Assembly: GCA_946537885.1 (NCBI GenBank)
Contig: CAMNGC010000004.1
Coordinates: forward strand, 62,001-126,000
Origin: an uncultured Clostridia bacterium
GTDB taxonomy: Bacteria; Bacillota; Clostridia; Saccharofermentanales; Saccharofermentanaceae
Length of the DNA stretch: 64,000 bases
Direction of reading: 5' to 3'
Each line of letters starts with the position of its first letter. The stretch's first letter is position 1. Under the pieces are notes generated by a model. That model was not told the DNA's origin. It saw nothing but the letters and a program-made list of their open reading frames with translations, and made no database searches. Shown here piece after piece: positions 28,504 through 52,348 of the stretch. A program made the position numbers and the translations under genes.

Positions 28504-28536
28504 CCTCCCTCCCGATTAGGCTATAAGACTAATTAA

Positions 28537-28624
28537 ATAGGGTTGTTGTGACAACCTTACTTCTGTATAATTATACCGAAATAGGGGTGTTGTGACAACC
28601 CTACTTCGGTATAATTATACCGAA
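28537..28624. repeat. Two tandem 44-bp repeats with nested palindromes (operator/promoter)
   Basis: Units 28537-28580 and 28581-28624 differ at few positions. Each holds an 11-base palindrome GTTGTGACAAC (28545-28555; 28589-28599) and a 20-base palindrome, perfect in the second unit (28605-28624) and with one mismatch in the first (28561-28580), whose centre is TATAATTATA. The palindromes overlap promoter hexamers on both strands, as expected for operator sites of a dimeric regulator. No regulator gene is next to it. Confidence 0.8.
28570..28598 (-). promoter_or_regulatory. Promoter of the Hsp70/AAA operon
   Basis: On the minus strand TTGTCA (28598-28593, within the second 11-base palindrome), a 17-base spacer and TATAAT (28575-28570, within the 20-base palindrome of the first unit). 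The predicted start lies about 90 bases before the Hsp70 ATG. Confidence 0.65.
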
Positions 28625-48271: not shown

Positions 48272-49909
48272 ATGAATTATTCTACTGAGGAAGAAATCAA
48301 AAGAAGACGTACTTTTGCCATAATCTCGCACCCCGACGCGGGTAAGACAACAATGACGGAGAAGCTTCTTCTCTACGGTGGAGCCATCCACATGGCCGGC
48401 TCCGTAAAGGCCCGTAAAGCAGCCCGTCACGCCACATCCGACTGGATGGAGATCGAGAAACAGAGAGGTATCTCCGTTACATCCTCGGTAATGCAGTTCA
48501 ACTATGACGGCTATTGCATCAATATTCTTGATACTCCCGGTCACCAGGACTTCTCGGAGGATACCTACCGTACCCTCTGTGCAGCCGATGCCGCAGTCAT
48601 GCTCTTAGACGGTGCCAAGGGTGTCGAGGCACAGACCATCAAGCTTTTCCATGTATGCCGTAAAAGAGGCATCCCGATATTCACCTTTATCAACAAGATG
48701 GACCGTGCGGCAAAGAATCCTTTCGATCTTATCGACGAGCTCGAAAAGGTTCTGGGCATCCGCTCCACTCCCGTCAACTGGCCGATCGGCACGGACGGCG
48801 ACTTCGAAGGAGTTTACGAGAGAGCCACCGGCGAAGTACTTCTTTTCGATTCGTCGAATCAGGATCACGGCGCCAGCATGGTCAAAGCATCAACATCCGG
48901 TATCGATGACCCGGAACTTAAGAATCATATGAGCGCAGGCCACTATGAGACTCTCCGTAACGACATCGAGCTATTGGATATGGCAGGTGACGAGTATGAT
49001 ATCGAGAAGGTATTGGCAGGCCAGCTGACACCGGTCTTCTTCGGTTCCGCCATCACCAACTTCGGCGTAGAGCCTTTCCTCAAGCACTTCCTCGAGGCGG
49101 CTCCCATGCCTCAGCCTCATCACGCCTCTGACGAGATCGGAATCGTCGAGCCGACGGATGAGATGTTTTCCGGCTTCATATTTAAGATCCAGGCTAACAT
49201 GGATCCCAACCACCGCGACAGAATGGCCTTCCTGCGTATCTGCTCAGGTAAGTACGAGAAGAACATGAGCGTTAATCATATGCGACTGGGCAAGAAGATC
49301 ACCCTTTCCCAGCCGCAGCAGTTCATGGCACAGGACCGTAACATCGTTGAGGATGCATACGCCGGCGACATCATCGGAGTTTTCGACCCCGGTCACTTCA
49401 GGATCGGCGACACCCTGATCTCATCTTCAAGGAAATTCGAATTCGACCCGATCCCGGTCTTCCCTCCCGAGAATTTTGCAAAGGTACAGCCCAAAGACTC
49501 CATGAAGCGCAAGCAGTTCCTGAAGGGCATCGAACAGCTCTCACAGGAAGGTGCCGTTCAGCTCTACAAGCAGCCTGACATCGGTACGGAGACCTATATC
49601 ATGGGCGTTGTAGGAATCCTGCAGTTCGACGTACTGGAATACCGTCTCAAGAGCGAGTACGGCGTTGATATCATCAGGACTCCCCTTAACTACCGTCTGG
49701 CCCGCTGGGTCAAGAGCGACGTCGGCGGAGGCTTCGGCGCACAGGGCGGGCCTGACTATCATGATCTGACACTGACATCCACATCCATGCTGGTACTCGA
49801 CCGCGATGACGAGCCGGTCGTGCTCTTCGAATCCGAATGGGCAGTAGACTGGGCAGTCGATCACAATAAGAGCCTTAAGCTCAGGTTCGAGGATATCCAT
49901 ACTAAGTAA
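48272..49909 (+). CDS. prfC: Peptide chain release factor 3
   Basis: 545 residues. A translational GTPase: G1 ISHPDAGKTTMTEKLL, switch region KQRGISVTSSVMQF, G3 DTPGHQDFSEDTYRTL and G4 NKMDR, then the RF3-specific C-terminal domains (FKIQANMDPNHRDRMAFLRICSG). It removes RF1 and RF2 from ribosomes after termination. AAGGTG lies six bases before the ATG; a terminator follows. Confidence 0.97.
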   Translation: MNYSTEEEIKRRRTFAIISHPDAGKTTMTEKLLLYGGAIHMAGSVKARKAARHATSDWMEIEKQRGISVTSSVMQFNYDGYCINILDTPGHQDFSEDTYRTLCAADAAVMLLDGAKGVEAQTIKLFHVCRKRGIPIFTFINKMDRAAKNPFDLIDELEKVLGIRSTPVNWPIGTDGDFEGVYERATGEVLLFDSSNQDHGASMVKASTSGIDDPELKNHMSAGHYETLRNDIELLDMAGDEYDIEKVLAGQLTPVFFGSAITNFGVEPFLKHFLEAAPMPQPHHASDEIGIVEPTDEMFSGFIFKIQANMDPNHRDRMAFLRICSGKYEKNMSVNHMRLGKKITLSQPQQFMAQDRNIVEDAYAGDIIGVFDPGHFRIGDTLISSSRKFEFDPIPVFPPENFAKVQPKDSMKRKQFLKGIEQLSQEGAVQLYKQPDIGTETYIMGVVGILQFDVLEYRLKSEYGVDIIRTPLNYRLARWVKSDVGGGFGAQGGPDYHDLTLTSTSMLVLDRDDEPVVLFESEWAVDWAVDHNKSLKLRFEDIHTK

Positions 49910-49971
49910 GAGCGGAGCATCACAGGAGCGTCAAAGCCTGATAGGCAAGTAATCTAAATAACTCAATATAG

Positions 49972-50010
49972 CAACTGAGAATGAGACATCTTATCCTCAG
50001 TTGGTACTTT
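49972..50010 (+). terminator. Terminator of prfC
   Basis: Perfect eight-base arms CAACTGAG/CTCAGTTG (49972-49979, 49996-50003) followed by GTACTTTTTTC. Confidence 0.8.
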
Positions 50011-50092
50011 TTTCTTCACGTTTTATGTGGGATTTATATATTGGCTCTAACCGATTCCGATCGAAAAATCTGTTGATAATCGGGGACAGGCG

Positions 50093-50361
50093 CGTCAACA
50101 GAAATGGTCTTCTGACTTCCAATCTGTTGACGGTCAGAGTGGCGCGTCAACAGAAATGACCTTCAGACAGCAAATCTGTTGACGGTCAGGGCGGGTGCGT
50201 CAACAGAAATGACCTCCAGACGGCAAATCTGTTGACGGTCAGGGCGACCGCGTCAACAGAAATGGCCTCCAGACAGCAAATCTGTTGACGGCGGGGGTGG
50301 CTGCGTCAACAGAAATGGCCTCCAGACAGCAAATCTGTTGACGGCGGGGGTGGCTGCGTCA
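50093..50361. repeat. Tandem array of five 53-bp hairpin repeats
   Basis: Full copies begin at 50093 (52 bp), 50145, 50198, 50251 and 50304 (53 bp each), a truncated sixth at 50357. Copies 4 and 5 are identical. Each unit has perfect ten-base inverted arms CGTCAACAGA and TCTGTTGACG around about 20 bases, then a G-rich 13-base spacer. A degenerate right half lies just before at about 50069-50092. The array stands between the convergent ends of prfC and the DUF4214/transglutaminase gene. Confidence 0.9.
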
Positions 50362-50377
50362 TAGGATCAGCTTATTC

Positions 50378-52348
50378 TCAATACCAGGTGCTGCAGTCGT
50401 AAGGATCGAATGTCTTCAGATCAACCCCGAAATCTCCCAGAACCATATCGTAAACTGTGTCATAGCCACGGAGGAATCCGACCTTGGTGTAAATGGAATT
50501 GAGCGAAGCTTCCGATGGGATCCAAGGAGTCGAGAAATCCGTCTCGCCTTTATCCAGCCCCATCTGTCCCTGCACCTCTACGAAGACATAATGTGACGGA
50601 TCGATCAATACCATGCAGATACGATGCCCCGCACTGTTCTCGTTGCGATTTGCGTATGATACGGAATAGTAATTACTGTAATCATTATATAAGCTCCCGT
50701 TCTCGTAATAAGAACATGCCATCGTCCAAGAGGTGTAACCACGCAGTCTCATAACGGCGGCGACGGAGTGACAGCCCCAGCAAGTGTAATCTCTGTATGA
50801 ATGGTTGCGCACCCAATATTCGGCGGCGCTCAACACCTCAAGATCGGTCATATCCGGCTTATATTTTAAGATATCAGACAAGATTCCCTTGGCATTCTCA
50901 GAATAGATCAGAGGGCCTGTCTGCTCGTTATTAAATTCAATGGTCTTTATCTTACTGCCCTTATAGTAGAGGTCGAATTTCTGAAGACCGGGCTCGCTGA
51001 ATTCGATGTGAACAGTGATGTATTTGTCAAAACCCTTTTCGAGCATATACTGATATCTCTCATCGGAATAATATGCCATCGAGAAAGGCTCTTCCCCTTC
51101 ATAATACTGTGTGTAAGCGATCACTTTGGCGGAAGAGGCATTCGGAATATACTGGGTGGATACGCCGCCTATATCGCGGAAGCCCTCATCCCCCTTATGC
51201 TTGATGTAGAAGTTCGAAGCATTCACCTTTCCGGAAACATATATTATCAGGTCAAGGCCCATATAATACTCGTTTGAGTCTACTGTCCCGTAGCTACAAG
51301 ACTCAAGATCCGTATAGGTACATCCGCTATAACTTTCGTAAGTGGACGCCTCCATAAAGGAGATGCCGTCACAAGTCGCGATCTTCTTGTAAGAATGAGT
51401 GACCTCTCTTGTAAAAGGAACAACTGTCGGTCCCACAACGACCTCATTATTATCTTCCTGAACAGTCGAATCACCGGGTACATCCATGTTGACAGAATTA
51501 CGCGCATAACGCTCACCGCTGACATTGCCACCTGCTTCGATCCCGTAGCTGCTGCAAAGCCCTATCCACTCCTGAGATCCTGCGAAACCATTAAAGATCT
51601 CGAGGTCATCGCTGCCGCCGCTGATCAAAGCAAGCCAACTGTCAAGTCCGCTCTGATCCGGCTCCCTGCCCAGAAAACCCATATACAGATCCGTCACAAA
51701 ATCCCGATCTGTCTTGTTCTTATTCTTATACTCACTCGAAAAGATAAATCCGTAGGCAGCCTCCGCACCGCTTATATCTCTGTTTGCCAGCCTTGTCGAC
51801 CAATCGGCCATTCCTGATTGATCACAATTCCTCCCAAGGATTATCCTATAAAGCCTCTCAACAAACAGATTGATCTTGGCAATCTTCTGATAATCCTTGC
51901 CGGCTATATGGAAACCCGCAATTATCCCATAACTGCTACACAACTCAAAGAATTCCACGGAATTAGCAAATCCGCAAAAAAGCTCCTCTCTGCTCATACC
52001 GGAGTTCATTTTGGAGAGCCAATCTGCCTTCCCCGCAGGATCAGATGCCCTACCGAAGAAACAGTTGTACATCAGCTCAACATAATCATCATTACTTATG
52101 GTCTTATTCTGAAACTCGGGTGAAAAGATAAACCCGTAGGCGCATCCTACGCCTGTGTTTGTCCCGTTTTCGAGCTGCTCGGTCCAATCACGGAATCCTG
52201 CCGGATCCGGCTGCCTGTCTAAGCAAATATCATAGAGTCTTGTAACAAAGTCGCCGACATCCTGTTTGTCGCTCGCGGCCGACGCCGGCATTACAAACAC
52301 AGAGAATACGATTATTATCGAAAGCAATAATGAGACGATCTTCTTCAT
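50378..52348 (-). CDS. Secreted protein with DUF4214 repeats and transglutaminase-like domain
   Basis: 656 residues. A signal peptide (MPASAA) is followed by four DUF4214 units (about 30-275), a beta-rich middle and a C-terminal domain (about 520-625) with a Cys in TCWGCHSVAAVMRLRGYT and a His in AGHRICMVLIDPSHYVFVEVQG, the arrangement of transglutaminase-like or papain-like cysteine enzymes. It is exported and may act on cell-surface protein or peptidoglycan; activity is inference. GGGGGAT stands before the ATG, and a TATAAT lies about 25 bases further upstream. Same repeat family as the protein at 37858-39720. Confidence 0.82.
   Translation of the reverse strand: MKKIVSLLLSIIIVFSVFVMPASAASDKQDVGDFVTRLYDICLDRQPDPAGFRDWTEQLENGTNTGVGCAYGFIFSPEFQNKTISNDDYVELMYNCFFGRASDPAGKADWLSKMNSGMSREELFCGFANSVEFFELCSSYGIIAGFHIAGKDYQKIAKINLFVERLYRIILGRNCDQSGMADWSTRLANRDISGAEAAYGFIFSSEYKNKNKTDRDFVTDLYMGFLGREPDQSGLDSWLALISGGSDDLEIFNGFAGSQEWIGLCSSYGIEAGGNVSGERYARNSVNMDVPGDSTVQEDNNEVVVGPTVVPFTREVTHSYKKIATCDGISFMEASTYESYSGCTYTDLESCSYGTVDSNEYYMGLDLIIYVSGKVNASNFYIKHKGDEGFRDIGGVSTQYIPNASSAKVIAYTQYYEGEEPFSMAYYSDERYQYMLEKGFDKYITVHIEFSEPGLQKFDLYYKGSKIKTIEFNNEQTGPLIYSENAKGILSDILKYKPDMTDLEVLSAAEYWVRNHSYRDYTCWGCHSVAAVMRLRGYTSWTMACSYYENGSLYNDYSNYYSVSYANRNENSAGHRICMVLIDPSHYVFVEVQGQMGLDKGETDFSTPWIPSEASLNSIYTKVGFLRGYDTVYDMVLGDFGVDLKTFDPYDCSTWY

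Follow-up and report, generated by a model that had tools for sequence, protein, structure and literature searches.

In phased operator arrays, such as the PurR boxes and GlnR/TnrA sites of Bacillus, inverted half-sites, some of them separated by long gaps, are occupied cooperatively along one face of the helix, and these arrays lie at the promoters of a regulon. REPIN and REP/BIME elements are dispersed, extragenic and species-specific, and have a variable interior flanked by invariant inverted ends a fixed distance apart; they can form tandem clusters, and BIMEs are protein-binding sites (PMC3116915, PMC3733652), and RAYTs are thought to mobilise REPINs (PMC3116915). According to the sections of its description drawn on here, BOX of Streptococcus pneumoniae is modular and intergenic, consists of terminal inverted repeats enclosing internal modules that vary in number, is enriched between convergent genes and is nearly restricted to its species (PMC3049150). 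The array described below shares features with each of these systems, and we found no account of its class in the open-access literature.

The window (the whole stretch of 64,000 nucleotides analysed here) carries a tandem repeat at 50092-50361, for which Tandem Repeats Finder gave a period of 53, 5.1 copies and 89% matches. The repeat consists of five 52/53-bp units, each of the form CGTCAACAGA-N20-TCTGTTGACG, with successive starts 52, 53, 53 and 53 bp apart (Table 1). The repeat finder and the unit coordinates bear out the original prediction of a five-copy array of 53-bp hairpins with 20-base loops and two identical adjacent copies; the ten-base arms that it called perfect are so at 10 of 10 bases in 5 of 5 units. 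It was also correct in placing the array after the prfC terminator and close to the stop of the DUF4214 protein, the gap between array and stop being 17 bases. prfC (+ strand) ends at 49909 and the DUF4214-protein ORF (- strand) at 50378, and both genes converge on the array. Half units like the one at the array start were seen at the start or end of other arrays too. With at most one mismatch, the arm occurs 12 times in the window, ten of them inside the array, compared with a mean of 3.3 and a maximum of 10 in shuffled sequence (n = 100), and a detector for at least two tandem hairpins with common arms returned no arrays in ten window shuffles. Elsewhere in the window, at 28535-28624, a 44-bp repeat occurs twice, the copies being 93% alike with two palindromes each (AAATAGGGGTGTTGTGACAACCCTACTTCGGTATAATTATACCG).

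Table 1. Features of the array and its upstream flank, in window positions
Feature	Position	Strand	Remarks
prfC terminator, stem-loop and T6	49969..50013	+	arms 49972-49979 and 49996-50003, then six T
Probable left end of an ISL3-type non-autonomous element, TTCTTCACGTTTTATGTGGGA	50012..50032	+	two mismatches to TTCTTCACGGA-N5-TGGGA
Decayed half unit (3' arm and spacer), AAATCTGTTGATAATCGGGG, family D3	50066..50085	+	array start, upstream of unit 1
Dyad unit 1, CGTCAACAGA-N20-TCTGTTGACG	50093..50132	+	loop most divergent from the family
Dyad unit 2	50145..50184	+	10-base arms perfect, loop of 20 bases
Dyad unit 3	50198..50237	+	
Dyad unit 4	50251..50290	+	53-bp repeat 50251-50303 identical to 50304-50356
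Dyad unit 5	50304..50343	+	
Final G-rich spacer and truncated start of the next 5' arm (GCGTCA)	50344..50361	+	

The arms of the prfC terminator (CAACTGAG/CTCAGTTG) are similar to hairpin family D (ACCAACTGA) of other elements in the genome. None of the 29 relatives examined carries an array of the window's family 3' of prfC; in one of them (G088) unrelated TTCTCTA palindromes, spaced 63 bp apart, lie there.

We searched the genome from which the window comes (G000; 2.07 Mb in 36 contigs, 88% complete) for GTCAACAGA-N10..30-TCTGTTGAC. The search returned 50 units with exact arms, spread over 12 intergenic loci and hereafter called family A, and the reversed control pattern gave no matches. The gap was 20 bases in all but one of the 50 units; each locus held one to eight units, in mixed orientation to the genes. 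According to the original prediction, a genome search for the arms that found no other copies could leave the array as a local slippage product; since the genome carries 50 units in 12 loci, the array is not such a product. No family A units were present in 58 other species of the genus, and an exact-arm scan of GTDB contigs and IMG/VR gave only isolated matches with unrelated loops, at or near the level of chance. Among these, isolated GTCAACAGA-N20-TCTGTTGAC palindromes with inverted ATCTGCGA/TCGCAGAT flanks occur at three loci in two species of Lolliginicoccus (L031, L026, L029) and are probably a separate small repeat family. The window array belongs to a dispersed family of long-gap palindromes that is restricted to this species.

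We ran a detector for sets of at least two tandem hairpins with common 8-base arms. It returned 12 arrays from 440 kb of a sister species (G005) and more from three others (G044, G053 and G017), counts that are samples, as are all those other than for families A and T (below). Shuffled sequence (1.6 Mb) gave none. Nor were there any in two genomes from a different family of the order (400 kb) or in seven further species of the genus (400 kb); this patchy distribution argues against a general essential role. The arms vary by locus across the detected arrays. Family T of G005 (TGTATCGAAA-N19-TTTCGATACA) comprises 52 exact-arm units in about 16 loci, mostly as arrays of four units spaced 53/51/53, and its gap length was nearly constant in a search that permitted gaps of 10-30 bases. 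Several G005 arrays sit after terminators. One G005 array is absent from the orthologous places in G007 and G046, and a single dyad is common to G005 and G020 at an orthologous place. A search of the flanks of this dyad for a DNA-binding gene that might encode a reader protein gave no regulator; the ORFs there resemble a methyltransferase and a small membrane protein. Several families of the window's genome and of G044 have an AATG motif following the 5' arm, which was rejected as a general feature because it fails in G005.

Arms, loops and spacers differ in how well they are kept. Family A arms showed three changes in 880 positions (44 units), all one-sided and none compensatory, a conservation that is partly inflated by exact-arm searching, from which the remaining units of each array are free. 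The loop was 13% off consensus and spacer identity was 0.65-0.69, with lengths nearly fixed (loop of 20 nt in 44 of 45 units; spacing of 52-53 in 32 of 33). Similarly, the arms of family T carried 13 one-sided and no compensatory changes (55 units). With its units oriented, family T loops were about 0.49-0.57 identical, the outer spacers 0.35-0.44 and the central spacer 75%, and the lengths stayed constant at 19, 14, 12 and 14 despite this divergence. The lack of compensatory change in the arms suggests that pairing alone is not what is selected, since pairing would permit compensation; a dispersed family could retain its arms simply for mobility. At one G005 locus (L278), the one-sided arm change GAGACA recurs in several units of a single array, which indicates that array units copy each other.

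The distance from dyad to dyad clusters at 50-54, 61-64 and 71-74 bp (near 52, 62 and 73; 26 values from about 25 families, one of them, 68, ambiguous). In a post hoc test on this hand-curated set, the Rayleigh statistic at 10.5 bp was R = 0.75 with a phase of -0.6 bp (P = 4e-7, n = 26). Spacings among the copies of one array are alike by descent, and the strictest set, with one value per genome and cluster, gave R = 0.85 (P = 1.7e-5, n = 15). Periods above 56 alone gave P = 6e-4, and against a null smoothed by 3-8 bp the observed value was not reached in 50,000 draws. The phase is slightly below zero at 10.5 bp, and 10.4 bp per turn fits equally. An automatic grouping (P = 0.013, 13 groups) merged unrelated families and was replaced by dyad measurement per family. 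In family B, spacings of 53 and 64 alternate within one array. Units in the 61-64 class range in length from about 26 to 51 bp, and it is therefore the total spacing, not the unit, that is set. Because neighbouring palindromes are almost always whole helix turns apart, an array of DNA-binding sites is favoured over an RNA hairpin.

Flank comparison showed that several arrays sit within elements of some hundreds of bases with the ends GTTCTTCACGGAAAGCTTGGGA. About 20 elements with such ends occur in the window's genome, and their interior is a mosaic of further palindrome families (B, ACCACAGA; C, GTAATGCTA; D, as above; E, TCCGGGAA). These ISL3-type ends are contained in or adjoin 6 of the 12 family A loci, the window copy included; since the other six have none, the ISL3 frame is one carrier and not the array itself. 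Both ends are present at L016, L021 (the right one degenerate) and L023, and a single end at the window, L019 and L024; no right end was found beside the DUF4214 stop. When up to three mismatches are allowed, random stretches of this genome contain the pattern TTCTTCACGGA-N5-TGGGA roughly once every 33 kb. Of 85 genomes of the genus, 20 contain the end pattern and none contains the reversed control. In sister species G098 and G036 the identical end bounds a gene for an ISL3-family transposase (PF01610), and the G098 copy has an 8-bp duplication, TTAAAATT, on either flank; a search for an ISL3 transposase in the window's genome (88% complete) gave no match. Among the framed elements, one showed an 8-bp match (TTATTTTT) and a few showed A or T runs at the target site, and most showed no duplication. 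In having ends like GTTCTTCACGGA-N5-TGGGA, the same as those of the autonomous ISL3 copies in the sister species, six of the A loci and about 20 further elements resemble ISL3-family MITEs; they differ in that arrays also occur unframed and that only a probable left end is present at the window copy.

Several side observations were also made. The family TATAGGGAACAGTTCCGGGAAA..TTTCCCGGAAGACTTCCC (period 54) lies in an ISL3-type frame at L049 (G000:C3:169630-170450) and has none nearby at L169 (13722-13819, C8). At L060 (G000:C25:95-900), internal end sequences and several palindrome families, among them ATGTATGCAT units, make up a mosaic element, which looks as if elements had been inserted into or had recombined with each other. 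At L145 (G044:C15, about 860-2600), an ISL3 copy lies amid an array of GTAAACCC..GGGTTTAC palindromes. L018 (13936-13987) matches the streptococcal sRNA SpF59 (RF02440) at 67 bits in a genome of non-streptococcal appearance.

Placement relative to genes was classified for 45 arrays by ORFs (L020 by hand), giving 14 at convergent, 28 at tandem and 3 at divergent sites, where these classes account for about 17, 59 and 24% of intergenic bases. Arrays were thus depleted at divergent sites (P = 0.002) and enriched at convergent ones (P = 0.013), a placement that fits tolerated insertion and function away from promoters equally.

Compared with REPINs, the half-sites are 10 bp long, against REPs of 16-25 bp with hairpins of their own, and the gap is about 20 bases, against the 4-5 base loops of the CGTC class; dyads are phased by whole turns, and compensatory changes, common in REPINs, are absent. 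There is no GTAG or unpaired CGTC tag, CGTC lying in the paired arm, and searches for a RAYT (Y1 transposase, PF01797) gave no matches in G000 (88% complete) or G005, with control genomes positive, so that strict membership of REP/BIME is not upheld. G044 and G053 each have one RAYT/Y1, in neither case tied to arrays in this analysis. For the framed copies, BOX is the closest structural parallel, as far as the sections of its description used here go; here the modules belong to several palindrome families unrelated to one another, half of the loci have no outer frame, the likeness considered is one of structure, and those sections do not describe helical phasing (PMC3049150).

Our leading interpretation, held at somewhat less than even confidence, is that these are helically phased arrays of putative sequence-specific protein-binding dyads that spread non-autonomously like REPIN or BOX. 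The 40-bp unit would then represent two inverted 10-bp half-sites with a 20-bp gap, and because successive dyad centres lie whole helical turns apart (in the window 52-53 bp, five turns), all sites would be on one side of the DNA. A putative sequence-specific DNA-binding protein would bind the half-sites cooperatively along this face, as in the phased operator arrays of Bacillus, in contrast to which the arrays here avoid divergent promoter regions and vary in sequence between species. The putative reader protein might be the mobilising enzyme or an architectural or insulating factor. Copies would spread non-autonomously, some within ISL3-type frames, and identical neighbouring units and alternating unit types suggest that arrays may grow and shrink by unequal recombination. 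With several families (A to E) in one genome, several proteins or one fast-changing protein would be required. Among the roles first proposed for the array, a protein-binding array or a dispersed REP/BIME-like family thus fits best (50 units in 12 loci, intergenic, few at divergent promoters).

The rival that survives best, which we regard as doubtful but substantial, is a selfish REPIN- or BOX-like miniature element that keeps its half-sites for a transposase acting in trans, with arrays and spacing as by-products of insertion and duplication and with no host function. The arrays are species-restricted and patchy, as the empty orthologous places in G007 and G046 illustrate; half of the A loci have ISL3-type ends, and G098 holds an ISL3 IS with a matching end and target duplication. 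Enrichment between convergent genes is taken as parasitic in BOX in the sections used here (PMC3049150), and REPINs likewise keep invariant ends at a fixed distance around a variable interior (PMC3116915). Against this, neither a Y1/RAYT nor an ISL3 transposase was found in the window's genome, which is 88% complete, 6 of 12 A loci lack an ISL3-type end, and clear target duplications are mostly absent. Moreover, diverged G005 copies keep arms and geometry although their outer spacers are near-random, and mobility alone does not explain helical quantisation.

That the arrays act in RNA, as transcribed hairpins that shield the 3' ends of mRNAs, halt exonucleases or act as bidirectional terminators, is improbable, and the 3'-end shield and hairpin roadblock of the original prediction are not sustained. 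The arrays do lie at gene 3' ends, as between the convergent prfC and DUF4214 genes, and folding exceeded that of shuffles on both strands (z = -4.9 and -6.8), which any palindromic repeat would give. However, a U-tract is absent, the spacers are G-rich and a terminator scan found no site in the array, which lies past the prfC terminator just as several G005 arrays follow terminators of their own. Single arm changes occur with no compensatory ones, orientation to genes is mixed, loop and spacer lengths are fixed with the spacing of a DNA helix, and Rfam gave no family at the arrays, only sub-threshold matches. Cruciform extrusion is also thought unlikely, given the 20-base loop. A neutral origin by slippage within a local palindrome, with template switching between arms to homogenise the product, is very improbable: it would suit the identity of units 4 and 5 and the shared GAGACA change at L278, but the arms are common to twelve dispersed loci, it is implausible that exchange between loci would be confined to the 10-bp arms and leave the adjacent 14-bp spacers to diverge, and neither fixed lengths nor helical spacing would be expected.

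Beyond the favoured reading of phased protein-binding dyads, it is possible, and we put it forward tentatively, that the arrays form a genus-wide class of cis-elements whose geometry (paired half-sites; 5, 6 or 7 turns) is kept while the sequence varies by species and even by locus. The usual reading of interspersed palindromic repeats is that they are RNA hairpins or selfish REP/BOX debris. Arrays that vary in sequence between species and not in helical spacing would indicate that DNA geometry is what is kept. If the genus-wide class is real, it would be a DNA-protein array under structural constraint whose specificity changes rapidly, and the array geometry would offer a simple handle for finding the putative reader protein.
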